Of a stretch of 64,000 nucleotides of DNA, positions 11,235-40,093 are shown piece after piece. The position numbers were made by a program, and so were the translations under genes. The notes under the pieces are model-generated. The model had not been told where the DNA came from. It saw nothing but the letters and a program-made list of their open reading frames with translations, and searched no databases. The stretch comes from a virus, in the IMG/VR virus record IMGVR_UViG_3300037348_000049, positions 62,001 to 126,000 of that record; one strand, given 5' to 3'. Positions within the stretch are counted from its first letter, which is position 1, and each line of letters starts with the position of its first letter.

Positions 11235-11375
11235 AACTCTGTATAAACTTAAACCTAAGGTTATACAAAAATGGCACATTGGACTAAGTCTTTTGAATCC
11301 ATGTGATACTGATAGATGAGGAGTTGGGTTTTAGCTGACAAATGTTCAGCGTTTAAATTAATAGAAAGGTTTACT

Positions 11376-12548
11376 GTGTCTCAAGAAGAAACCTACAAAG
11401 TGGTTGCTGGCTTAATTGTATCTCCTACAAACAATATTATTCTGGGTTCGGGTGAGAATACGTACCTAAACTCCATAACTCCAGATAATAAAGTTGCTAC
11501 TATAAAAGATATTAATGATGCTAACACAGCGGATTTTACTTTTGAGAATGTAGATAGCAGCGAAAGCAGGGTCTATTTAAACAACAAAGACTTTACAATT
11601 GAAACAACTCGCGGTGAGCCAGTCTCATTTGAAGGTAGCATCTCACTTGCTACTGCTAACACATATTCTTTAATTGCTGGAGCAGGAATTACAAATACTG
11701 GTCCTACCGCTATTAATGGTAACATTGCCACTTCTCCGAACAATATCTTTACAGGTCGGGGGTCTGCCATTATTGTTGGCGACGTTCATTTAAATGACCC
11801 TAAGGCTGTCCAGGCACAAATAGACTTACGCAGTGCTTATGATGAAGTTGAAGCTCTTACCCCTACTGATACAGTAACTGCTAACTTGGGAGGCCAGACT
11901 CTCTCTCCAGGTGTCTACAACTCTGCAACTTCCATAAACTTAAGCGGTGACCTAATTCTTGACGCTGGCGGAGAAATCGATGCAGTGTTTGTTTTTCAGG
12001 CTGGGACTTCGTTTGAAGTTGTCGGAGGTAGCACCGTAACTCTGATAAATGGCGGACTAATTAGAAATGTCTACTGGCAAGTGGGCACCGCTACAAATGT
12101 CGCGGGTGGTGCTGAGCTAATTGGTCTTGTTATGTCGACTGGAACGATTGCTATGGCAGCTGGCGCTTCCATACGTGGACGGTTGCTTTCACTAGACGGT
12201 GCCATAACTCTATCGACAAATAGTATTATTTTGCAATCGACCCCAGAGTCAGTAAATATTGATGCAGATATAAACTTGTTTTCTGCAGACGACGTTATTA
12301 TTGAAGCAAGGGGAAGTGGTGTTCAGATATCAGCAAACTCTAATGTCTTTATTACTACTAGCAAATATGACTCTCTCAGTCAATGGACGTTTGTTGAAGA
12401 TGGGTCGCTAGAGTTCCCCGACAACACCTTTCAAACTACCGCTTATACGGGAGAGGTTCCTGCTTACACAAATACCGCAGACCTAAAGGCTCTTGTAGCA
12501 TCAAGCACAGATTTTGCAGACTTTAAGAGCAGGATTGCAGCGCTGTAA
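11376..12548 (+). CDS. Phage protein with DUF3494 ice-binding-like domain
   Basis: 390 residues from the GTG at 11376 (AAAGG precedes it); an in-frame upstream ATG at 11316 lacks a ribosome-binding site. Residues about 90-285 match the DUF3494 beta-solenoid: TNTGPTAINGNIATSP, NLGGQTLSPGVYNSA, AVFVFQAG, NVYWQVG, GASIRGRLLS. In bacteria this fold includes ice-binding proteins and adhesins. The flanks resemble virion proteins: an N-terminal beta region, and a C-terminus with LEFPDNTFQTTAYTG as in phage fibre heads, then TADLKALVASSTDFADF. A virion adhesin or decoration protein is the simplest reading. It has no signal peptide. Confidence 0.85.
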   Translation: MSQEETYKVVAGLIVSPTNNIILGSGENTYLNSITPDNKVATIKDINDANTADFTFENVDSSESRVYLNNKDFTIETTRGEPVSFEGSISLATANTYSLIAGAGITNTGPTAINGNIATSPNNIFTGRGSAIIVGDVHLNDPKAVQAQIDLRSAYDEVEALTPTDTVTANLGGQTLSPGVYNSATSINLSGDLILDAGGEIDAVFVFQAGTSFEVVGGSTVTLINGGLIRNVYWQVGTATNVAGGAELIGLVMSTGTIAMAAGASIRGRLLSLDGAITLSTNSIILQSTPESVNIDADINLFSADDVIIEARGSGVQISANSNVFITTSKYDSLSQWTFVEDGSLEFPDNTFQTTAYTGEVPAYTNTADLKALVASSTDFADFKSRIAAL

Positions 12549-13932: not shown

Positions 13933-14590
13933 AGGCAAGGCAATACTATATGCGCGAGTCTCTACCGCGATGCAAGTTAGTGATGGTATATCGCTAGATG
14001 TACAAGAAAGGCAGCTAATAAACGCTGCTGAGTTTCACGGCTTTGCAGAGTGGGAAGTTATTCGCGAAGAAGGCAAGTCGGGCAAGAGCGTAAAAGGACG
14101 CCCCGTTTTACAATCCGCTTTGAAACGCCTTGAGGCCAAAGAAGTAGACGCCCTTATTGTTACAAGGATAGACAGACTGGCTAGGAGTACAACTGACTTT
14201 CTTGAGATAGTGGACAAGGCCGCCAAGCAAGGGTGGCGACTAATAATGCTAGATCTAAACCTAGATACTTCTACGTACCAAGGAAGATTTGTAACAACCG
14301 TGATGAGTGCCCTCGCCGAGATGGAGCGTGGCATTATTGCTTCCCGTCAGAAAGATGTGCACAAGGATAGACGAGAGCGTGGCATTGTTTGGGGAAAAGA
14401 CATGGGCCCAATAAATAAAACTCCGCAGATCATAAAAGATAGAATTTCTGCGGAAAGAAGTGCTGGACGGTCCTATCGTGAAATAGCTAACGGATTAAAT
14501 CAGGAAAAAATAGCTACGCAGAATGGTAAAATATGGTACGCTACGACAGTAAAGAACATTTTAGATGGGATGTCACCTAGTGAAGCGTAA
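13925..14590 (+). CDS. Small serine recombinase (resolvase/invertase type)
   Basis: 221 residues. The catalytic domain has ILYARVST (nucleophile Ser13), the basic motif VTRIDRLARS and the helix-E region MSALAEMERGIIASRQ. A C-terminal HTH follows (RSYREIANGLNQEKIAT). The length fits resolvases and invertases, not the large serine integrases, so it more likely acts in inversion, resolution or short-element mobility. It overlaps the next gene. No inverted-repeat crossover site was recognised nearby. Confidence 0.9.
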   Translation: MSEGKAILYARVSTAMQVSDGISLDVQERQLINAAEFHGFAEWEVIREEGKSGKSVKGRPVLQSALKRLEAKEVDALIVTRIDRLARSTTDFLEIVDKAAKQGWRLIMLDLNLDTSTYQGRFVTTVMSALAEMERGIIASRQKDVHKDRRERGIVWGKDMGPINKTPQIIKDRISAERSAGRSYREIANGLNQEKIATQNGKIWYATTVKNILDGMSPSEA

Positions 14591-15308
14591 AAGAAAATCA
14601 ATAATAAAATTCACCTCAGCAGATAACTTTACAGAGCAAAGTGCAGCATTCCCTTTGCCGGCAAAGAGATCTGTCCCAGATTGGTATAGAAAGATGCCAT
14701 TACATTTTGGCGGTGAAGGCTATAAGTGGATGGGAGAAAGGGGGAATAACGGAACTTTTAAGGCCTGCATCCCCATGTTTGATGCCCTAACTTCAGGATA
14801 TGTTATACCTACCCCTATTGACTTACTTGTTGAGCAAGATTATTCGGGAACCCCAAAATTTGTTTGGAGAATGGCTGGCGATAGTGGCATGATTAGTACT
14901 CATGATCCTGGTCAAATACCAGAGGACATGGTCCCTGAGGAGTATGACAAAATGGCTTTCAAGTTCGCTAATCAATGGATGGTATCAACGCCTCCTGGAT
15001 ACTCGCTGCTGTTTACTCATCCACTAAACAGGGGTGACCTGCCATTCTATAGTTTGACTGGTATTGTTGACACTGACAAATACACCGCTCCAGTTAACTT
15101 TCCATTTTTTATCAAAAAAGGCTTTACGGGAATGATACCAGCTGGCACTCCCATGATCCAACTCATTCCTATTAAGAGAGAACCATGGGCAATGGAGCTA
15201 GATAAAAAGTTTGATGCTGATGCCGTTACAGTAGCTAATGGACCTCTTTACTCAAAGATGTGGAGAGGTTATAGAGACTTCTTCTGGGATAAGAAAGAGT
15301 ATGAGTAG
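14580..15308 (+). CDS. Halogenase-associated conserved protein, paralog 1
   Basis: About 242 residues from the GTG at 14580 (ATG 14565 is an alternative); it overlaps the recombinase stop. Motifs are PAKRSVPDWYRKMP, CIPMFDALTSGY, FTHPLNRGDLPFYSLTGIVD and MIPAGTPMIQLIPIKRE. The 15652 gene has the same blocks, so they are paralogs. I recall this family (probably DUF6065) sitting beside tryptophan-halogenase genes in T4-like cyanophages; the number is from memory. The core looks like a double-stranded beta-helix or cupin-like sheet, which is an inference. Confidence 0.7.
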   Translation: MKRKRKSIIKFTSADNFTEQSAAFPLPAKRSVPDWYRKMPLHFGGEGYKWMGERGNNGTFKACIPMFDALTSGYVIPTPIDLLVEQDYSGTPKFVWRMAGDSGMISTHDPGQIPEDMVPEEYDKMAFKFANQWMVSTPPGYSLLFTHPLNRGDLPFYSLTGIVDTDKYTAPVNFPFFIKKGFTGMIPAGTPMIQLIPIKREPWAMELDKKFDADAVTVANGPLYSKMWRGYRDFFWDKKEYE

Positions 15309-15659
15309 ATGCCTAAAAAGAAAAAAGTAAACGCACCTATTGAAACTGCTCCAGCTCCAAATAAAGACTGGGAATACGTAACGGAGTTGCGAATAAATGG
15401 TAGGAATGTTGCTGCTGGGACTGAGCTAAAAATAAAAGGTCATCGAGGCAGGTTTAGATTTGTAAAGCTTGTGCGTAATGGAGAAGTGGAATGGATTGAT
15501 GTTTGGGGAGGTCCAAAGAAGTTTGAATCTATGAGAAGCTTTAGACTAGAGCAGGTTCAAAGAATTCATTACAAGAATCAAACCGTGGGTAATTTAGCTG
15601 AAGAATATAAAGCTAAAAAAGCGATCTTAAAAGCAGAAGAAGGAAGTAACGATGTTTAA
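15309..15659 (+). CDS. Conserved actinophage hypothetical protein (DUF7246-like)
   Basis: 116 residues. A Lys-rich N-terminus is followed by TELRINGRNVAAGTELKIKG, RGRFRFVKLV, EWIDVWGG and FRLEQVQRIHYK. This compact beta domain recurs in actinophages, probably with an RNA- or DNA-binding SH3-like fold. It follows the previous gene with no gap and overlaps the next by 8 bases. Confidence 0.65.
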   Translation: MPKKKKVNAPIETAPAPNKDWEYVTELRINGRNVAAGTELKIKGHRGRFRFVKLVRNGEVEWIDVWGGPKKFESMRSFRLEQVQRIHYKNQTVGNLAEEYKAKKAILKAEEGSNDV

Positions 15660-16404
15660 ATTCTCTAAAAATAAGAAAACCCGTCCGGGTGAAAAATTAA
15701 TTGAGTTTGGTAAGACTAGTCCCTTTATACCCAGCCCAGTGCCTGCGAGAAGTACAATACCTGATTGGTACAAAAAGGCACCTAGATTTTTGAATGGAGA
15801 TACCGAAATTAAGGTAGGTTCTGCCACCTCCGCTGGTAACTTAGGTGTAAAGTACTGCGTACCATACTTAGATGCGCTAAGTTCTGGCTACACTGCAAAA
15901 CTTTGGGCTGATATTCAGGTCAAACAAGGGCCTAAGGGGCCCATCTTTAACTGGTCGGTTGATCCAAAGATAATCGAAGGCCGAACAGTAGAGGGTTTTG
16001 AAACCTTGCCTGTACCTATCGGTCACTCTGAAGAACAGTTTATATGGATACAGCCCTTCTCTGTAAGGCTCCCTAGGGGGTATAGTGCAATCTTCACACA
16101 CCCATTTAATAGGTTCGATCTCCCGTTCACTACGTTGACTGGAATAATGGATTGTGATGACGTAATGCCAGAAGGTAATTTTCCATTCTATTTGCAAGAA
16201 GGTTGGGAGGGTATAATACCAGCAGGCACCCCTTTCTTTCAGATAATTCCATTTAAGAGAGAAAAATGGGTGGCTATAGACAATCACGCCGTCTGGGAGG
16301 CGGCTCAGAAAAGACTTTGGGACTCTGCCGCTGTTGTTGCGGGATTCTACAAGCGTAAGCTTTGGTCAAGAAAAGAGTACAGAACAGATTATGACAACAA
16401 ATAA
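15652..16404 (+). CDS. Halogenase-associated conserved protein, paralog 2
   Basis: 250 residues, sharing PVPARSTIPDWYKKAP, CVPYLDALSSGY, FTHPFNRFDLPFTTLTGIMD and IIPAGTPFFQIIPFKREKW with paralog 1. The pair flanks the DUF7246-like gene and directly precedes the first halogenase-like gene, overlapping it by 14 bases. The family is unassigned biochemically; the conserved Pro/Trp-rich entry motif and IPAGTP turn may line a binding pocket. Confidence 0.7.
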   Translation: MFKFSKNKKTRPGEKLIEFGKTSPFIPSPVPARSTIPDWYKKAPRFLNGDTEIKVGSATSAGNLGVKYCVPYLDALSSGYTAKLWADIQVKQGPKGPIFNWSVDPKIIEGRTVEGFETLPVPIGHSEEQFIWIQPFSVRLPRGYSAIFTHPFNRFDLPFTTLTGIMDCDDVMPEGNFPFYLQEGWEGIIPAGTPFFQIIPFKREKWVAIDNHAVWEAAQKRLWDSAAVVAGFYKRKLWSRKEYRTDYDNK

Positions 16405-17956
16405 ACGCTCAGTTGAGAACTACGTAATTCTTGGTGGTGGAACAGCTGGGTTGCTAACAGCGCTATACGTAAGGCAAGTGCTCCCTACTAAAAACGTGAT
16501 CATCGTAAAATCAGATGAGATAGGAGTAATCGGTGCTGGTGAGGGCACCACTCCTATATTTATTGATCTCTTGGATTTTCTTAATATACCCGTATCCCGA
16601 TTAGTCCAAAAAACTGGCGCTACTCTAAAAAATGGTATTAACTTCAAGGGCTGGTCTAAAGACCTCCCGGAGGAAAATTACTTACATCCCTTTAATGCAG
16701 ATTTCGGTGCTGGAATATCTAGCTTAGAATCATACGAACACATTAATGGAGTTCACCCAGGGTTTCTTGTAGCTCGTGATGCGGGGGATTCTCTAAGTGC
16801 CGCAGACTTAACTAGCATGTTGGTAGAAGGTCATCAAATCGCGGCGATTGACGAAGGTATCGTTATACAAAATGCAGATCCAATCAACAATTACACTCAT
16901 ATGGTGCGGTTTGCACTCCACTTTGATGCTATTGCTCTAAGTAAGGAACTGCTAGCAATTGCAAAATCACGCAAAATAAAAGTAGTTGAGGGAATTGTCT
17001 CAAGTTACGAAAGAGATGACTCTGGAGATGTTAAGAAACTAATTTTAGAAGACTCTACTGAGGTCGAATCAGATTTCATCTTTGATGCAAGTGGGTTTAA
17101 GAGATTTTTTGCAAAAGAGCTAAAAAGCAAGTGGATTAGCCACAAGAAGCATCTCCCAGTAGACGCCGCTATTCACTTCTTTCTGCCTACAACGGAAAAA
17201 ATCTCCGCTGTAACTGATGCAATTGCAATGAAGTACGGTTGGATGTGTAAAATTCCTTTACAGCATAGGTACGCATGCGGCTATGCGTTTGATTCTTCCC
17301 TAATTACGGCTCAGGAAGCTCAGTCTGAAGTTGAAGAATACTTAGGGCACGACATTGATGTAAATAGAACTCTCTCTTTTGAGCCGGGGTACTATAAGGA
17401 TCCCTGGAAAAACAACGTAATATCAGTAGGACTATCTGCGGGATTTATAGAGCCATTAGAAGCAACGTCTATAACTTCTTTAATAATGCAGCTCAGGGAT
17501 GTTCTCCCTTTTACAGAAACAATGAGTAGCATGAATCCAAAAGTTGCGGAACTCTACAATAATAAGTTTGCAACCCGTAGTGAAGAAATTGCGGCTTTAG
17601 TGAATTTTCACTATTTAACTGACCGCGATGATACTGAATTCTGGAGAAAGTTCTCTAGAAAAACCGTAGTACCATCCTTGAGCGTAAAACTTGATGTTAT
17701 GGACGCCAGGGTCTTGCACTATTCAGACGTAGCCCACCCTTTTTGGTCACCAGTTAGTTGGTATTATGTAGCCTTTGGTGTTAAGTATCAGCCACTCCTC
17801 GACTCGATTGATGCAGCGCTAGACAGTGGCATCTTCACTAAGTTTCACTCTAATGAGTACAAAGAGCTTAAAGGCACTATAGAATCTTTAAAGAGTCATT
17901 GCATAGACCATCGAACGTATTTAATTGGACTAGGAGCAAAGCGTTGGACAAACTAA
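16391..17956 (+). CDS. Flavin-dependent tryptophan-halogenase-like protein 1
   Basis: 521 residues from ATG 16391. The FAD-binding motif is VILGGGTAGLLTA (GxGxxG type), followed by GAGEGTTP. A Lys in ATLKNGINFKGW (Lys80) aligns with the catalytic Lys79 of PrnA/RebH. The chloride and substrate loop GFIEPLEATSI is intact. The halogenase signature WxWxIP reads WMCKIP, with the second Trp lost. Active halogenases use FADH2, O2 and halide to halogenate tryptophan or similar rings. A reductase partner is not visible. Confidence 0.85.
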   Translation: MTTNKRSVENYVILGGGTAGLLTALYVRQVLPTKNVIIVKSDEIGVIGAGEGTTPIFIDLLDFLNIPVSRLVQKTGATLKNGINFKGWSKDLPEENYLHPFNADFGAGISSLESYEHINGVHPGFLVARDAGDSLSAADLTSMLVEGHQIAAIDEGIVIQNADPINNYTHMVRFALHFDAIALSKELLAIAKSRKIKVVEGIVSSYERDDSGDVKKLILEDSTEVESDFIFDASGFKRFFAKELKSKWISHKKHLPVDAAIHFFLPTTEKISAVTDAIAMKYGWMCKIPLQHRYACGYAFDSSLITAQEAQSEVEEYLGHDIDVNRTLSFEPGYYKDPWKNNVISVGLSAGFIEPLEATSITSLIMQLRDVLPFTETMSSMNPKVAELYNNKFATRSEEIAALVNFHYLTDRDDTEFWRKFSRKTVVPSLSVKLDVMDARVLHYSDVAHPFWSPVSWYYVAFGVKYQPLLDSIDAALDSGIFTKFHSNEYKELKGTIESLKSHCIDHRTYLIGLGAKRWTN

Positions 17957-18234
17957 ACTGGTGGGTAGCATTAAAAACAATGTGGGCTGGTGGGTACTGG
18001 AACAAGGCTAACACTATTGAATTCTATGCCTTCATGATTAAAATTATCATCATCGTTCCGGGTCTTCTTTTTGGGGTGTCTTGGTGGTGGTTGTATTTGC
18101 TGTCTCTTGGCACAAGTATAGCCCTGGTATGGTCTTCTACCGTCAAGACACTTCCAACAATAATCATCTTAAATATTGCATGGATTTTTATATCACTAAC
18201 AGTAATAAGTAGAGAGGTCCTAACATGGATGTAG
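17944..18234 (+). CDS. Small multi-pass membrane protein between halogenase genes
   Basis: About 96 residues from the TTG at 17944, with AGGAG 7 bases upstream; it overlaps the first halogenase by 13 bases. Three hydrophobic segments are visible: around MIKIIIIVPGLLFGVSWWWL, LLSLGTSIALVW, and TIIILNIAWIFISLTV. It ends by overlapping the second halogenase gene by 10 bases. Tight overlap on both sides suggests it works with the halogenases, for example at the membrane. That link is inferred. Confidence 0.6.
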   Translation: MDKLNWWVALKTMWAGGYWNKANTIEFYAFMIKIIIIVPGLLFGVSWWWLYLLSLGTSIALVWSSTVKTLPTIIILNIAWIFISLTVISREVLTWM

Positions 18235-19739
18235 TTATTGCGGGGGGAGGATCTGCGGGGTGGTCTGTTGCTTGGGCTTTTGCTAGAGGTTCTAAGGTCT
18301 CATCTATAACTGTTGTTGAGTCTTCTAGGATAGGAATAATTGGAGTTGGCGAAGCATCTAGTGGCCTGACGACTGATCTTTTAACGGACTTTCATACTTT
18401 TTCTGACTCTAGGATTATGAATGACGAAATGCCCTTTGACTTTAAGGACTTCTACTCAACAGTGCATGCTACCCCAAAGTTTGCGCTAATTCATAAAAAT
18501 TGGAGTAAAATAAAAAATCACTCCTATGTGGCACCTACTGAGGCACCATTCACGCATACGACGGCTCCAGATCTTGGATACTTAGCTTGCGTTGGCAAGT
18601 GGGGGGGTAGAGGTGCCCACCTATCTTCTGCACTAGGAATTGCGCAGGCTCTTGACAAATGGCCGCTTGGCGATGACCCCGGCGGGATCCAATTTGACGC
18701 CAATGAGTATAGTAAATATCTAAAGGAATTCTTGACTAAAGATCCACGAGTAAAAGTAATAGACGCAGATATTGAAGATGCAGAACTAGACTCTCGGGGG
18801 TATATTAAAAACATTGTACTAAAAGATGGATCTCGTATAGAGGGTGACTTTTTTGTAGACTGTACTGGTTTTAAACGAGTTCTAGGAAAGAAAATTGACG
18901 TAGGTTGGAACTCCTATGCAGATGTCTTACCAGTCGACAGAGCCATGCCTTTTATTGAGGAATATAAATCTTTTGAAAAAGAAATCCCGGTTGGTACTGC
19001 AACCGGCATGAACGCTGGTTGGATGTGGCAAGCTAACTTAAATCATAGACGTGGTATGGGGTATGTGTACTCTAGTCAGTTTATTTCAGATGAAGATGCG
19101 GTTAAAGAGGTCGAGAAGCTCCGTGGACGCAAAGTAGATCCTGTAGCTTTTATGAAGTTTGATTCTGGTTCTGTTAATGATTTCTGGAAAAAGAACTGCC
19201 TTGTTGTTGGACTGGCTGCATCATTCATAGAGCCATTAGAAGCAACATCACTACACGCAACCATGATGCAGGCTATAACTTTTGTTAGAGAATACTTGGG
19301 TCCAGATGTTGAAAAGACAATAAATTCTGGTTCTATGTATTTCTACAATAAGCAAACTAAAGAAATGTATGAGCACTACAAAGACTTTGTTGTGTTCCAC
19401 TATCAGGGTGGTAGAACTGACACCCCATTTTGGCAGCACATAACCAATGACAAGTTGTCAACTCCTGTCGTCGATGCTTACATTGAGAAAGTTCAAGCAC
19501 GTTCACCTGGACGATACATGTTTAATGATATATGGAACGTAGATGCTCTTTGGAAATGGACCGCAACAGGCCTCGGATTTTTTACTCAAAAGCAAGCAAG
19601 AGCTGAGCTGGACTTTCTCGATCTTAAATATATAGCAAATAGGGAGTTCCACGATTTCTATGACTCAATCGAGTCCGAGCTGCTAAAAACTGATTTGAAG
19701 TTTCAATTCGCACCTAAAGGAAGAGACCTTAAAAAGTGA
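18225..19739 (+). CDS. Flavin-dependent tryptophan-halogenase-like protein 2
   Basis: 504 residues. The FAD motif is VVIAGGGSAGWSVAW with GVGEASSG. HATPKFALIHKNW places Lys85 at the catalytic position, and SFIEPLEATSL is intact. The signature reads WMWQAN: both Trp are kept but IP is lost, the complementary change to paralog 1. GAGAGGT lies 7 bases before the ATG. A related but distinct substrate, or a heteromeric pair, is possible. Confidence 0.85.
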   Translation: MDVVIAGGGSAGWSVAWAFARGSKVSSITVVESSRIGIIGVGEASSGLTTDLLTDFHTFSDSRIMNDEMPFDFKDFYSTVHATPKFALIHKNWSKIKNHSYVAPTEAPFTHTTAPDLGYLACVGKWGGRGAHLSSALGIAQALDKWPLGDDPGGIQFDANEYSKYLKEFLTKDPRVKVIDADIEDAELDSRGYIKNIVLKDGSRIEGDFFVDCTGFKRVLGKKIDVGWNSYADVLPVDRAMPFIEEYKSFEKEIPVGTATGMNAGWMWQANLNHRRGMGYVYSSQFISDEDAVKEVEKLRGRKVDPVAFMKFDSGSVNDFWKKNCLVVGLAASFIEPLEATSLHATMMQAITFVREYLGPDVEKTINSGSMYFYNKQTKEMYEHYKDFVVFHYQGGRTDTPFWQHITNDKLSTPVVDAYIEKVQARSPGRYMFNDIWNVDALWKWTATGLGFFTQKQARAELDFLDLKYIANREFHDFYDSIESELLKTDLKFQFAPKGRDLKK

Positions 19740-19990
19740 ACGATGAAGAACTGATGCAAACTGGAGCAAAGCTTGAAAGAGAGAGACTTGCTAGAATCGC
19801 TATGGGTGAAGGGCTTAGGAATGAAGACGAATCTCGTAGAGCTAGAACTTTTGCAGCAGCTGGAGAAGTCTCGGAACGTAAACGTCTATTGAGACTTTTT
19901 GAAGAGTGCAGGGAAAGAGATGACCACCCCGAATGGGCTGAGTGGGCAATCAAGATAATAACTACGCACAAAGATCACAGATACCTCTAA
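19736..19990 (+). CDS. Small charged helical protein
   Basis: 84 residues. The GTG overlaps the halogenase stop as GTGA. It is almost entirely helical and charged (LERERLARIAMGEG, SERKRLLRLFEECRERDD), and ends EWAIKIITTHKD. Similar ERxR-containing small proteins occur at 23.7-25.9 kb. No family assigned. Confidence 0.6.
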   Translation: MNDEELMQTGAKLERERLARIAMGEGLRNEDESRRARTFAAAGEVSERKRLLRLFEECRERDDHPEWAEWAIKIITTHKDHRYL

Positions 19991-20778: not shown

Positions 20779-21051
20779 TTATTTTTTGGGGTACTTGCGT
20801 TCTTTATCTGTACCATCAAAGATATAGCCGTCACCGTCACCGTCGCGTGGCAAGTCTTCTTCGAGCTTCTCGTATCGGAAAGGCCAAAAGGTAATCCACC
20901 AAGCAATAAGGGTAAACATGATTAAGTTACCAGTGATTGTCTTGGCATCGCCCTCAAGGACTAGCCAACCGATGATAAGTGCTACTAGTGTCCACGCTTG
21001 ATCGATAGTGTCCTTAAGTAGTTCTTTCAGGAAGTGAAAGATAGTTTTCAT
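20779..21051 (-). CDS. Small membrane protein with DGDGDG tail motif
   Basis: 90 residues: an amphipathic N-terminal helix, two hydrophobic segments (AWTLVALIIGWLVLEG and NLIMFTLIAWWITFWPF), then a soluble tail, DGDGDGYIFDGTDKER. The tail looks like a calcium-binding loop and recurs in an unrelated gene at 35421-35726. Holin-like topology is possible. It converges with thyX and is followed by another minus-strand gene. Confidence 0.6.
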   Translation of the reverse strand: MKTIFHFLKELLKDTIDQAWTLVALIIGWLVLEGDAKTITGNLIMFTLIAWWITFWPFRYEKLEEDLPRDGDGDGYIFDGTDKERKYPKK

Positions 21052-21098
21052 TTATAGATTACTTTCTGCTCGTTTGATTTTTAGAAGGCCGAAGTACA

Positions 21099-23126
21099 TT
21101 ATTTAGATCTCTTTACTGTTCTGGATCGGGACGAAGTTCCACTGGATGAGGCAAAGGCGGAAGAGGTGGCAGCGGCGGTTGCTGCAGTCTGTGCGACTGT
21201 GCTAACTATGACTGCTGCTACAACTACTTCCTCTGACTCTTCGCGAACTTCTGGGGACATGTCTGCTCCGAGGTTTCCTATGTCGTTAAAGACTTCAAGA
21301 ACTGCTGCTGTTGCTGCACCAACTAGAGGAATCGCTGCAAGCTCTTTTGGCATCTCGGGGTCGTCAGCCTCGGCAACTATCGACAGAGCTTCAAGGGCTG
21401 CTTCGTAAACTATAGATCCCTGTGGCGCAGTTTGGAAAGCCTGGAAAGCTGCTTCCTTAACTGAGGTCTGTTGCTCGTTAGTTAAAATCCGGGGATTCTT
21501 AATCTGTGCAATTTCTCTAACCGCTGCTTTAATGTTCTCTGCTGTAACTGGCTCTTTAATCTCTACAACAACTGGCTCCTTTTTAGGCTTTGGGGTTGCA
21601 ACTTTTGTCGCGGTGGGGGTAGGTTTGGCCGTAGGCGTATTAAAAATAGGGGGGACTGTATCCAGAGTGGCTATGGGTTTTGAAGTCGGGGCTGGGGTGG
21701 ACTGTGGAGTCTGCTTTGTTTTTGTTGGTGTGGGTGTGGAGGTCGGAGTGGGGGTCGGAGTGGGGGTCGGCTTAACAGGATTAGAGTCAAGGATAGGGTC
21801 ATTTTTCTTTACTGGCTCTTGAGTATTAGTTGGGGTCGGTGTCGGTGTCGGTGTCGGGGTTGGGGTTGGGATTGGATCTGCGGTCTGGGTTGGAGGTTGC
21901 AACTGTGTTGGAGGTTGAGTCGGTGTGGGTGTGAGTGTTGGGGTCAATGTCGGAGTCGGGGTCGGAGTTGGCTCTTGAGTTGGCTCTTGAGTTGGGGTGG
22001 GGGCTGGCCCGGCAACTATAAAGTCTGCAGTGACAGATTGTGGAGAGTAGACAGCGAACGAATCGTTATCTCCGCGAATTTTAAATGTATAGAGAATATC
22101 TAGCCCGCCCGTGGATTCAAACAAAGACCTTGACAGAGTGAAAGTCTCCACATCACCAATGGCGGCCACTGCCCAATTGTTGAAAAATACTGCGTAGCGC
22201 TCTACTGGTGTCCAACCCGTAGCCGATCTATCCCAACTAAGAGTTACGTCTCCGCTTGTAGTATCTTGTGTCACTGCTAGATTCTGCGGTTCGGCGATTG
22301 TCCGATTAGGTAGTTCGTATAATGCGTCAGCATTAGCCTGGGTAGTTGCGTTAAGCGATATATTGAAATCTGTGGACGCTTGGTTAAAAGTTATTACTGC
22401 TTGATCTCTAACTGTTTCTAAGTTTGTTGTAGTGTCTGGGTTGGACTCGTAATCATAACTAGTAGTTGCGTCAACAAGATTAGAACCCGCGGTGTTCTTT
22501 GCATCGTTAGCTAAGATGACATCAGCGTCTAATGAATCAACGAGTGCTTGAGCAACTAAGAAAGTTTGGTAGGCAGCATCTGAGTTAGTGAAGTCTCCGG
22601 TGGACGTGTCACTATCTAACGCTGCTTGATACTCGGAGTAGGCAGTATCTCTATCTAGCTCTGCCTGCAAGTAGTCTGAGTAGAATCCATCGTAAATAAC
22701 TACTGCATCATCAAAAGTTGTTTGAGCTGTATCCCGAGAACTTAATGCAGCACTTATAACGAACGGCTGAGCGTTAACCGCTAGCTCTGCAGTATCAGCT
22801 ACGCTACCTGTCGAGTCGTAAGTGCTAACTGCTAAAGACAGAGAAGAGACTGCAGAAGAAAAAGATGACACTGCGGCGGTTGCTGCGTCAAGTTCCGGTA
22901 AATCATCGGGAGTGTAAGTTTGATAGTAAGTAGCTACATCGTTCAGTGTTGACTGGTAAGTTGAGAGATCCTGCTGCTGGGCCGATAAGTTCTGCTGGGG
23001 TGTCGCACTTCCAGACGCGCTTAGTACTGGCCATAGTGCTGGAATGAAAGCAAAAGATATTGCTACATAGATGCGTGTCGATATGGCAAACTTACTACGA
23101 CCACTACTCCGGTTTTTTCTAATCAA
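21099..23126 (-). CDS. Exported Pro/Thr-rich protein with coiled coil and FN3-like domain
   Basis: 675 residues. Order: basic N-terminus and signal/anchor (about 17-42, IYVAISFAFIPALWPVLSAS); a long Gln/Thr/Asp-rich helical region (45-275) with heptad-like spacing; a fibronectin-III-like domain (about 280-372, TSGDVTLSWDRSATG); a PT repeat linker (375-508, TPTPTPTPTPTPT); a helical domain; a C-terminal hydrophobic segment (about 635-655); and a basic tail. The PT linker is encoded by GT-rich tandem repeats near 21720-21985. A cell-surface-exposed protein is likely, perhaps altering the infected host's envelope. No close family recognised. Confidence 0.75.
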   Translation of the reverse strand: MIRKNRSSGRSKFAISTRIYVAISFAFIPALWPVLSASGSATPQQNLSAQQQDLSTYQSTLNDVATYYQTYTPDDLPELDAATAAVSSFSSAVSSLSLAVSTYDSTGSVADTAELAVNAQPFVISAALSSRDTAQTTFDDAVVIYDGFYSDYLQAELDRDTAYSEYQAALDSDTSTGDFTNSDAAYQTFLVAQALVDSLDADVILANDAKNTAGSNLVDATTSYDYESNPDTTTNLETVRDQAVITFNQASTDFNISLNATTQANADALYELPNRTIAEPQNLAVTQDTTSGDVTLSWDRSATGWTPVERYAVFFNNWAVAAIGDVETFTLSRSLFESTGGLDILYTFKIRGDNDSFAVYSPQSVTADFIVAGPAPTPTQEPTQEPTPTPTPTLTPTLTPTPTQPPTQLQPPTQTADPIPTPTPTPTPTPTPTNTQEPVKKNDPILDSNPVKPTPTPTPTPTSTPTPTKTKQTPQSTPAPTSKPIATLDTVPPIFNTPTAKPTPTATKVATPKPKKEPVVVEIKEPVTAENIKAAVREIAQIKNPRILTNEQQTSVKEAAFQAFQTAPQGSIVYEAALEALSIVAEADDPEMPKELAAIPLVGAATAAVLEVFNDIGNLGADMSPEVREESEEVVVAAVIVSTVAQTAATAAATSSAFASSSGTSSRSRTVKRSK

Positions 23127-23625: not shown

Positions 23626-23700
23626 CCGCCTCTAGTTCAAGGGCAGAGCAGCGTTGGAGTTATCTAGCGTGGGTTCCTGGTTCGAATCCAGGGGGGCGGA
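23626..23700 (+). tRNA. tRNA-like gene with atypical anticodon arm
   Basis: Acceptor stem CCGCCTC (23626-23632) pairs with GGGGCGG (23693-23699), discriminator A, no encoded CCA. The D arm is GTTC/GAGC and the T arm is CCTGG-TTCGAAT-CCAGG, which is canonical. The anticodon arm (23651-23670) does not give a 5-bp stem with a 7-base loop: GCGTT pairs with AGCGT, leaving a 10-base loop, or a 7-bp stem with a 6-base loop. No anticodon can be assigned. It may be an unusual or decayed tRNA, or an attachment-site remnant. Confidence 0.6.
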
Positions 23701-23740
23701 CTTTAAGGTATAATTATGTGTACTGCTAATGAAAGGCTAA

Positions 23741-38412: not shown

Positions 38413-38571
38413 ATGGCCACAAAATTGCCCGTTGAGCGTCAAGATTACTGCCCGTACTGCGGATGGATACGCTTGGAAGATCAAGGTAATAACTCTTACC
38501 CACGCTGCTCACGGCAAGGTTGTCCAGGTGCGCACAGCAAAAAGAAAGGTAAGCCCGTCATTGAGAAGTAG
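38413..38571 (+). CDS. Small zinc-ribbon protein
   Basis: 52 residues from ATG 38413: YCPYCGWIRLEDQ and CSRQGCPGAH form a C-X2-C...C-X4-C zinc ribbon. A longer overlapping frame (starting 38432) is a shadow of this gene at its 5' end. GAGACC-type purines upstream. Confidence 0.6.
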   Translation: MATKLPVERQDYCPYCGWIRLEDQGNNSYPRCSRQGCPGAHSKKKGKPVIEK

Positions 38572-38578
38572 CGAAGAC

Positions 38579-38779
38579 ATGTTCCTAGGAACAGTGGCCG
38601 CCAGGGATGGTTATACTTTTAACGAGGCAGCTGATGTTATAGATCTGGTAGTCCACACCAAGTCACCAGAGAAGTGGCTATTGATAGATCGAGAGACCGG
38701 CCAGACTTACCAAGGAAGCCTCTCTGGCAATTGGGATAAGATGGACCCACGAAAGAACGATAGGATGAAAGAACTATGA
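38579..38779 (+). CDS. Small beta-rich hypothetical protein
   Basis: 66 residues from ATG 38579: TVAARDGYTFNEAADVIDLV, then WLLIDRETGQTYQGSL. Overlaps the next gene by 4 bases (ATGA). No family recognised. Confidence 0.55.
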   Translation: MFLGTVAARDGYTFNEAADVIDLVVHTKSPEKWLLIDRETGQTYQGSLSGNWDKMDPRKNDRMKEL

Positions 38780-39036
38780 AACATTACACATTTCTCAGCG
38801 GGCACGTAGACCTAGAGCGAGAGCAATTCTTAACTGTTTCGCTTTATGCAGAGTCTGCTGATGCAGCAAAACTAACTTTGATTCAAGTTCTCATGAGTCC
38901 CGAGATCACTGACGAGGGTCCTACAGGCATGACCTTTGAGCTTGTTTCATCGCGTGAGCTCGAGGAAGACGAAAAAGTTGTTCGTTCAATCCATGGCATT
39001 GCTCCGAACGGCCACACTTGGGACCAAAGCTACTAA
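38776..39036 (+). CDS. Small hypothetical protein
   Basis: 86 residues with two beta-alpha halves (HYTFLSGHVDLEREQFLTVS and TFELVSSRELEEDEK). Unknown. A GGCGAGCGCC palindrome follows at 39041-39050. Confidence 0.55.
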   Translation: MKHYTFLSGHVDLEREQFLTVSLYAESADAAKLTLIQVLMSPEITDEGPTGMTFELVSSRELEEDEKVVRSIHGIAPNGHTWDQSY

Positions 39037-39114
39037 GCGGCGAGCGCCGGTTTAATCTTCGACTAATAATTAAGTAGAGATTTTACGCCTTCTTGTGCTA
39101 GACTTTGTAAAATA

Positions 39115-39369
39115 ATGATGATGTCTCAGCAGCACTTAATAGAGATCCTCCAGGCCGATATCGAGGCACGGGGAGATCAGATGCTCTCCATTTGGATCTG
39201 GGATCGAAAAGCATTCAACGCAACACACGGCTCGGATATGATCGAAACCCAATGGACGGCCGGCCTGGTGACAATAGATGACGTGACTCAACGTCTAATG
39301 GTTGGTGAAGATGCACGGGTACTCTACTCAGAAGCATTAGAGGAGTTGGGGTATGTCGAAGAAGAATGA
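39115..39369 (+). CDS. Small hypothetical protein
   Basis: 84 residues, start among three consecutive ATG codons (39115, 39118, 39121). Contains DQMLSIWIWDRKAF and TIDDVTQRLMVGEDARVLY. A TAGACT hexamer lies 11 bases upstream. Overlaps the next gene by 17 bases. Confidence 0.55.
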   Translation: MMMSQQHLIEILQADIEARGDQMLSIWIWDRKAFNATHGSDMIETQWTAGLVTIDDVTQRLMVGEDARVLYSEALEELGYVEEE

Positions 39370-40093
39370 ACCGATCAAGGTTTACTGGTCGCCCACCGAG
39401 GTAGACGGGTTGAGGTGGAGCCTCTTGTATGAAGAGCCTGCTAACATACTTAAAGAAATCACGCCCCGCAAGAATCTAGATGTTAACTATGACAGCTACC
39501 TCTTCTGTCCTTCATATAAAGCAATTGCCAGTAATACTTTCTCCCTAATTGCACCGATGCGTTCTGAGTTTGTGTATCAAGAAAACTTTTCAGGCGAGCA
39601 GCCTTACTTAGAGTTCCCAGGCAGAAGCGGCTTGGGTGGGAGTATTAACAAGCAGCCAACTTTGAACGGCTCGCCTCTTATCAATGTCGCAATGAATTGG
39701 TTCTTCTTTTGCGAAGAGCCACTGGAGATGGAGATAACTCCTCCGTACTTGCACAAAACAGAAAGCAGCCAGTACGGCGCGATAGTTCCTGGGCGGGTTG
39801 ACATCGGCCAGTGGTTTAGGTCCATGAACGTTGAGTTTCAATTGTGGGAAGACGAGACCGAGCTCAAGATAGAAGCTGGCCAGCCAATAGCCTACGTTCG
39901 ATTTCTTACTGACCGCCCCGTAGAATTAGTTCGCTTTACGATGACGGAAAAGCTAGAAGAGTTAGCAATGGCCTGCATAACAATGCCATCGACTTTCGGA
40001 TTGCTTAAAAGTCTGCAGGAACGCTACGATCGATTCAATAAAACTAAAACGGGCTCGCTTGTGATGAAGAACATCCAAGAGAACTTGACCTAA
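39353..40093 (+). CDS. Hypothetical protein, distant relative of the halogenase-associated family?
   Basis: 246 residues. WSLLYEEPANILKEI, then YDSYLFCPSYKAIAS, FFFCEEPLEMEITPPYLHK, NVEFQLWEDETELKIEAGQP and PIAYVRFLTDRPVELVRF. The Pro-rich core and the EAGQPIAYVRF turn resemble the IPAGTPxxQ turn of the 14580 and 15652 proteins, but similarity is weak. No function known. Confidence 0.55.
   Translation: MSKKNEPIKVYWSPTEVDGLRWSLLYEEPANILKEITPRKNLDVNYDSYLFCPSYKAIASNTFSLIAPMRSEFVYQENFSGEQPYLEFPGRSGLGGSINKQPTLNGSPLINVAMNWFFFCEEPLEMEITPPYLHKTESSQYGAIVPGRVDIGQWFRSMNVEFQLWEDETELKIEAGQPIAYVRFLTDRPVELVRFTMTEKLEELAMACITMPSTFGLLKSLQERYDRFNKTKTGSLVMKNIQENLT

Follow-up and report, generated by a model that had tools for sequence, protein, structure and literature searches.

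Two halogenase-family flavoproteins in a recurring phage gene cassette with a three-helix membrane protein and DUF6065 proteins

Are two phage flavoproteins of the tryptophan halogenase family, each with an altered signature motif, likely to work as halogenases, and on what might they act? The question is raised by a 64,000-nucleotide stretch of DNA from a lake phage (hereafter the window), which comprises bases 62001-126000 of the 129,571-base IMG/VR virus record IMGVR_UViG_3300037348_000049. On its plus strand, positions 14565-19990 hold a tightly packed string of genes encoding a first DUF6065 protein, a DUF7246 protein, a second DUF6065 protein, halogenase-family protein A, a membrane protein, halogenase-family protein B and a short open reading frame (ORF) of 84 amino acids (aa). 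Because neighbouring gene ends overlap at almost all steps (13 bases between A and the membrane-protein gene, 10 bases between the latter and B), the arrangement suggests a single transcript, in line with the operon proposed in a preliminary description made from the sequence letters. Our reading, to which we give about an even chance, is that A and B are halogenases of the VirX1/PrnA type dependent on reduced flavin adenine dinucleotide (FADH2), that they belong to a recurring phage cassette for oxidative tailoring, and that their substrate is probably bulky and not tryptophan in its free form.

PF04820 (Trp_halogenase) was the only full-length family found in A and B, at 309 and 277 bits, respectively, against a cut-off of 21; enzymes of this family add chlorine, bromine or iodine to aromatic rings. 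Both ORFs are intact: A starts with ATG at 16391, with an alternative TTG start at 16334 that would give 540 aa, and B starts at 18225 and encodes 504 aa. The two proteins matched solved halogenase structures with a best E of about 1e-48, and these strong matches assign the halogenase fold to them. The flavin adenine dinucleotide (FAD) motif reads GGGTAG in A and GGGSAG in B, and the EPLEATS stretch is present in both. In an alignment with PrnA, whose reference sequence was checked against PDB 2apg, the positions of K79 and E346 are occupied by K80 and E357 in A and by K85 and E339 in B, and the first Trp of the WxWxIP signature is kept in both. The preliminary description had recognised the pair by its FAD motif, Lys and EPLEATS loop and had named phylogeny and the catalytic Lys and Glu as tests of that assignment; both residues are kept, and the tree places A and B inside phage halogenase clades and not outside the halogenases. 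We place A and B in sequence family PF04820 and infer that they would have halogenase activity.

With PrnA, RebH and Thal, the two proteins share the fold family, the FAD motif, the equivalents of Lys79 and Glu346 and the first signature Trp. They differ from these enzymes in the replacement of the second Trp (A) or the Ile-Pro (B) and in the absence of the C-terminal tryptophan-gripping motif, since both show gaps at the columns of PrnA Y443, Y444 and E450. Enzymes without this motif do not bind tryptophan (PMC8269204), and because it is absent here the probable substrate is a bulky molecule other than free tryptophan. The family name and the usual annotation of phage halogenases would favour halogenation of free tryptophan, leading to a small signalling or toxic molecule; however, with the gripping motif missing from both proteins and no halotryptophan-using biosynthetic genes seen in the cassette, we consider this highly improbable.

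A characterised phage relative is VirX1 (6qgm). Cyanophage Syn10 carries two halogenase genes in tandem, and VirX1 is identical to the product of the second; its neighbour in the pair is CPUG_00132. VirX1 prefers iodide and takes large substrates (PMC8407142), and the helical lid is absent from it (PMC7948982). In Syn10, a DUF6065-like gene overlaps the end of the VirX1 gene, a 2-oxoglutarate (2OG) oxygenase gene follows 1 kb on and glycine-rich proteins are encoded upstream; the statement in the preliminary description that the family of the two upstream paralogs occurs beside cyanophage halogenases was therefore right. Like A and B, VirX1 is a phage PF04820 protein from a tandem pair with a DUF6065-like gene nearby, has the catalytic Lys and Glu and lacks the tryptophan-gripping Tyr pair. 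Unlike them, it belongs to a separate clade and has an intact signature (WVWNIP). No homolog of the membrane protein was found beside VirX1 in Syn10, whereas relatives of VirX1 in two other contigs (L097 and L100) have one.

The cassette recurs in other phages, and the membrane protein served as an independent probe for it. A search with the membrane-protein homolog of contig L006 returned 51 viral loci, to which the window and L007 were added. A halogenase was present in 43 of 52 membrane-protein loci and a DUF6065 gene in 26 of 52, within flanks of up to about 8 kb; these 52 loci include several near copies and represent 37 distinct membrane-protein sequences. For the reverse probe, a search with the halogenase alignment, the best 80 of at least 586 loci were examined, and the search patterns favoured canonical members at the EPLE, GxGE and DCTGF stretches, not at the signature. 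Of these halogenase loci, 31 had flanks of 5 kb or more on either side; the membrane protein occurred in 20 of the 31 and DUF6065 in 16, counts that, like the others, include related contigs. As a base rate, a PF04820-type halogenase was found in 66 of 50,697 isolated phage records. The membrane protein accompanies at least four halogenase clades, including the relatives of VirX1, and its gene overlaps a halogenase gene in 24 of 44 loci, three of them with the genes on opposite strands. The spread over clades and the opposite-strand overlaps argue for a putative working link between membrane protein and halogenase, and not only common descent.

The 96-aa membrane protein, which the preliminary description had correctly placed between the halogenase genes, represents a conserved and nearly phage-restricted family with 25 invariant columns among 33 aligned homologs. 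It had no Pfam family match, and no match was found among the 50,697 isolated-phage records. Its predicted model consists of three long helices, with a predicted local distance difference test score (pLDDT) of 77. In a fold search SemiSWEET was the best of few matches (Z 4.9 over 76 residues), which is below the level of a relationship; the two have three membrane helices in common, with no shared sequence motif shown. Bacterial genomes held three distant relatives (L113, L114 and L115). The one in L115 adjoins a polyketide synthase and a TauD-like enzyme, and the one in L114 a flavin monooxygenase and a heme-oxygenase-like protein, these neighbours being named from sequence reading and unscored; the small protein thus has a second setting in bacteria.

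We next consider the signature, which reads WMCKIP in A, with Cys at the second Trp, and WMWQAN in B, with Ala-Asn in place of Ile-Pro. Both readings in the preliminary description were accurate, and from them it had proposed a complementary loss in which each protein gave up a different half of the motif. We surveyed 127 phage halogenases after reducing the set at 90% identity. All 127 have the Lys and the first Trp and 119 have the Glu, but no more than 86 carry a complete WxWxIP; 24 have lost the second Trp and 12 the Pro. Some halogenases without WxWxIP or with variants of it are known, such as Bmp5 (PMC8407142). Given this variation, WxWxIP is a common mark of the family, not a defining one. 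Cys at the second Trp was found only in A among the 127 homologs, and WMCKIP was seen again in contig L004, which is 99% identical to the source. An exact scan for further copies of the WMWQAN stretch gave none, and the sister contig L014 ends before the site, so WMWQAN is known from one contig; the change of Pro to Asn recurs in two other phages (L208 and L218).

The tree separates the two proteins. A falls in a clade of 17 rows that includes L063, L006 and L066 (support 100/99), and these closest relatives carry WIWKIP, WTWKIP and WMWKIP. B groups with L068, L061, L058, L059 and L062 (100/99), with L068 as its sister (99/95); in its closest relatives, L068 (WIWRTP) and L061 (WMWRTP), Thr-Pro already replaces Ile-Pro. 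As judged from this tree, the pair is assembled from two old phage lineages, and a recent duplication was rejected. The separate clades, together with the wide variation of the motif, also speak against a coordinated, complementary loss of the signature halves, which was likewise rejected. Losses of the second Trp and of the Pro are frequent enough across the phage homologs for independent drift to account for the changes. The alignment covers 15 loci that carry at least two halogenases; most of these retain an intact signature in one copy, and the window and L217 in none. Several other viral contigs (L161, L164, L183, L213, L215 and L218) carry three or four clustered halogenase genes among 2OG oxygenases, and some of these copies lack the catalytic Glu. 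The halogenase of a human faecal phage (L112, MT835646) falls within a bacterial halogenase clade, for which reason phages seem to have gained halogenases more than once.

A number of observations weigh against the proposed halogenase reading of A and B. Neither signature is intact, and B has Ala and Thr at the positions of PrnA H101 and F103. The branches of A and B are about two to three times longer than those of their nearest sisters, which makes a change of substrate or rate plausible. No flavin reductase was found in the phage record. Finally, the genomes of the three bacterial membrane-protein relatives had no clear halogenase of the PF04820 kind, so the membrane protein is not strictly tied to halogenation.

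The altered signature raises the possibility that one or both proteins are flavin monooxygenases, in which a changed WxWxIP gate would let the substrate reach the flavin and be hydroxylated instead of halogenated. The motif is thought to hold the substrate off the flavin and thereby to prevent monooxygenation (PMC8407142), A and B show a partial likeness, far below the cut-off, to the protein-modifying flavoproteins LodB and QhpG, and the cassettes are rich in 2OG oxygenases, that is, in hydroxylation. However, the LodB and QhpG matches mostly reflect the common FAD fold, halogenases with variant or missing motifs exist, as with Bmp5, and every phage homolog surveyed, A and B among them, retains the catalytic Lys, a residue not known to take part in hydroxylation. 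We regard hydroxylation as an unlikely alternative.

Alternatively, one of the two, with B the likelier, may be a decaying copy or one without catalysis whose only role is to support the other. B is the more changed of the two, with Ala, Asn, Ala and Thr at PrnA I276, P277, H101 and F103 and a long branch, and clusters of several halogenases usually combine one canonical copy with at least one variant, some without the Glu. Nevertheless, B is a full and intact ORF with FAD motif, Lys and Glu, and its ratio of nonsynonymous to synonymous substitution rates between two contigs is below 1 (0.44 over 148 codons, a weak value because of the few changes). A helper or decaying copy thus appears quite improbable to us. 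In a comparison with the sister contig L014, A differs at 6 of all 1563 bases, whereas the first 444 bases of B (18225-18668, against L014 7802-8245) contain 22 differing sites, which may reflect local recombination or fast change in B.

The DUF6065 proteins, the two upstream paralogs of the preliminary description, supply the second recurring partner. Protein 1 passed the PF19541 cut-off narrowly (27.1 bits against 26.6) and protein 2 was matched via phrog_7084 only; across the family, PF19541 was matched by 22 of 39 members. Protein 2 is 47% identical to the DUF6065 gene product adjoining the halogenase pair of L006. An AlphaFold model of protein 1 built from 39 relatives reached a mean pLDDT of 92.8, and its best fold matches were dUTPases (Z 10.8, 2.8 Å over 119 residues; 50 of the 50 matches listed). 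One family member also matched the dUTPase profile PF00692 (1.1e-4). With the dUTPase superfamily, DUF6065 shares the predicted fold and the positions of motifs 3 and 4; at motif 3, G-L-I-D-S-D of the E. coli enzyme aligns with G-I-V-D-T-D of the family. The catalytic set of dUTPases (motif 1 Asp, motif 2 PRSG, motif 3 and motif 4) is incomplete, motif 3 being kept and motif 4 partly. DUF6065 proteins differ from dUTPases in their greater length and extra helices, and the metal-binding Asp of motif 1 is absent from the conserved SGY stretch. They have an invariant Cys and near-invariant Lys and Asp of their own. On account of the absent Asp and of these residues peculiar to the family, DUF6065 probably does not function as a dUTPase.

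This predicted fold bears on a further reading, in which nucleotides or phage DNA would be the target of the cassette and DUF6065 would be a dUTPase-like enzyme. The fold, the PF00692 match and the retained motif 3 (G-I-V-D-x-D) would fit such a role, as would ThyX, encoded 300 bases downstream, and the ribonucleotide reductase genes near several cassettes. The missing motif 1 Asp speaks against it, as do the frequent occurrence of DUF6065 without halogenases and the lack of any other base-modification gene seen, and we consider it very unlikely. DUF6065 was also rejected as a halogenase-specific partner: in the flanks of 26 loci fetched with DUF6065, often tandem and with near copies of the window excluded, neither a halogenase nor the membrane protein was found (0/26). 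Where DUF6065 occurs without halogenases (L025-L050 and L055), it often forms tandem pairs or triplets in viral contigs and is single in haloarchaeal viruses (HF1). In the open-access literature we found no paper naming DUF6065; the cassette itself may have been described elsewhere. A further family, F3, accompanies the cassette in other phages and has a homolog in the window; it is possibly a distant DUF6065 relative, given a weak profile match (probability 14%).

Two related phages show how the parts are rearranged. Contig L006 (3300046779_001371), like the window, has DUF6065, two halogenases and the membrane protein in a single string, and both of its halogenases are about 40% identical to A. 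It differs in that both belong to the clade of A (WLWKTP and WTWKIP) and the membrane-protein gene comes after the pair, not between its two members. The closest annotated relative found for the source phage is Actinomycetia phage DSL-LC01 (identity of 73% for terminase, 70% for portal and 71% for DNA polymerase), with many structural and replication genes in common. Its halogenase (WJZ48553) has likewise lost the second Trp (WVSKIP, with Ser at that site). It is a single copy with 29% identity to A; its gene has a glycosyltransferase gene and collagen-like genes as neighbours, and neither DUF6065 nor the membrane protein adjoins it. DSL-LC01 originates from Dishui Lake and was described as a probable actinobacteriophage (PMC10611076); the host of the source phage is probably also an actinobacterium.

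If A and B are halogenases as proposed, the host would supply FADH2, the enzyme would make hypohalous acid from O2 and halide, and the halogen would then pass by way of the conserved Lys to an aromatic substrate bound close to the conserved Glu. The membrane protein and the DUF6065 proteins, with their predicted dUTPase fold, may be working partners of A and B. The preliminary description had suggested a phage-specific small molecule or a protein modification. For the target we prefer a phage-made protein, peptide or membrane-linked product, because of the membrane protein and because sister cassettes contain glycosyltransferases, methyltransferases and 2OG oxygenases. The family, the catalytic residues, the linkage within the cassette and the dUTPase-like fold predicted for DUF6065 are computational results, drawn from sequence and predicted structure; which chemistry takes place, whether the membrane protein is required and what class of substrate is used are inferences. 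PF13640 oxygenase was not found in the phage record.

In a specific version of this substrate step, virion fibre proteins would be the target of halogenation or another modification by the cassette, along with glycosyltransferases, methyltransferases and 2OG oxygenases. In Syn10, DSL-LC01, L007 and the phages with B-type halogenases (L058-L068), the genes come after others for glycine-rich, collagen-like or other tail-fibre proteins, and some of these phages have a glycosyltransferase and a methyltransferase in the same string. However, a collagen- or glycine-rich protein lay within 5 kb in 19 of 59 halogenase loci, compared with 26% of random places in the source genome, and the nearest fibre-type gene in the window is 2 kb away with a recombinase gene between. 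With no enrichment in this neighbour count, fibre modification was rejected as a general role, and for this cassette it is rather unlikely. Outside the window, at 38451-39539 (-) of G000, a glycosyltransferase belongs to the same family as those adjoining the B-type halogenases in L058-L068 and the DSL-LC01 halogenase; it stayed near fibre genes, and the halogenases of the source phage are located elsewhere.

Table 1. Positions in the window of the cassette genes, signature motifs and the F3 homolog
Feature	Position	Strand	Evidence or remark
DUF6065-family protein 1, 247 aa, predicted dUTPase-like fold	14565..15308	+	PF19541 3.5e-6; phrog_7084 2.8e-50
DUF7246 / phrog_1338 protein, 116 aa	15309..15659	+	PF23904 7.6e-23; L006 homolog 52% identical
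DUF6065-family protein 2, 250 aa	15652..16404	+	phrog_7084 3.8e-37
Halogenase-family protein A, 521 aa	16391..17956	+	PF04820 5.4e-92; start overlaps preceding gene by 14 bases
WMCKIP of A (PrnA W272-P277 position)	17240..17257	+	alignment with PrnA
Three-helix membrane protein, 96 aa, TTG start	17944..18234	+	overlaps both halogenase genes
Halogenase-family protein B, 504 aa	18225..19739	+	PF04820 5.3e-82
WMWQAN of B (PrnA W272-P277 position)	19020..19037	+	alignment with PrnA
84-aa ORF, last in string	19736..19990	+	overlaps end of B; no family match
Homolog of family F3	39353..40093	+	own hidden Markov model, 1.7e-74

Other features of the window were noted outside the cassette. A 410-aa protein at 11316-12548, 2 kb upstream of it, has an ice-binding-like domain (PF11999, 5.6e-49) and a phage-fibre-like end. 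On the minus strand at 20779-23126, a 675-aa protein with Pro/Thr repeats is apparently exported and adjoins a small membrane protein; in phages that carry halogenases, homologs of this small protein lie near CHAP lysins and a secreted family (f23). ARAGORN predicted a transfer RNA (tRNA) with a four-base anticodon (gtta) at 23626-23701; this may be either a tRNA that shifts the reading frame or a loop that was read wrongly.

Although phage halogenases were recognised years ago, to our knowledge they have no established natural role. We tentatively suggest, with less than even confidence, that one to four diversified flavin halogenases, a dedicated three-helix membrane protein, DUF6065 and often several 2OG oxygenases make up a widespread phage tailoring system that would yield a halogenated or oxidised product during infection, of which VirX1 would be the only tested member. 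With a membrane partner that recurs across several clades, and a second partner family whose predicted fold can be recognised, the role of phage halogenases would become testable on a defined set of genes. For enzyme discovery, the cassettes are a source of numerous halogenases whose signatures differ, among them arrays of three or four.

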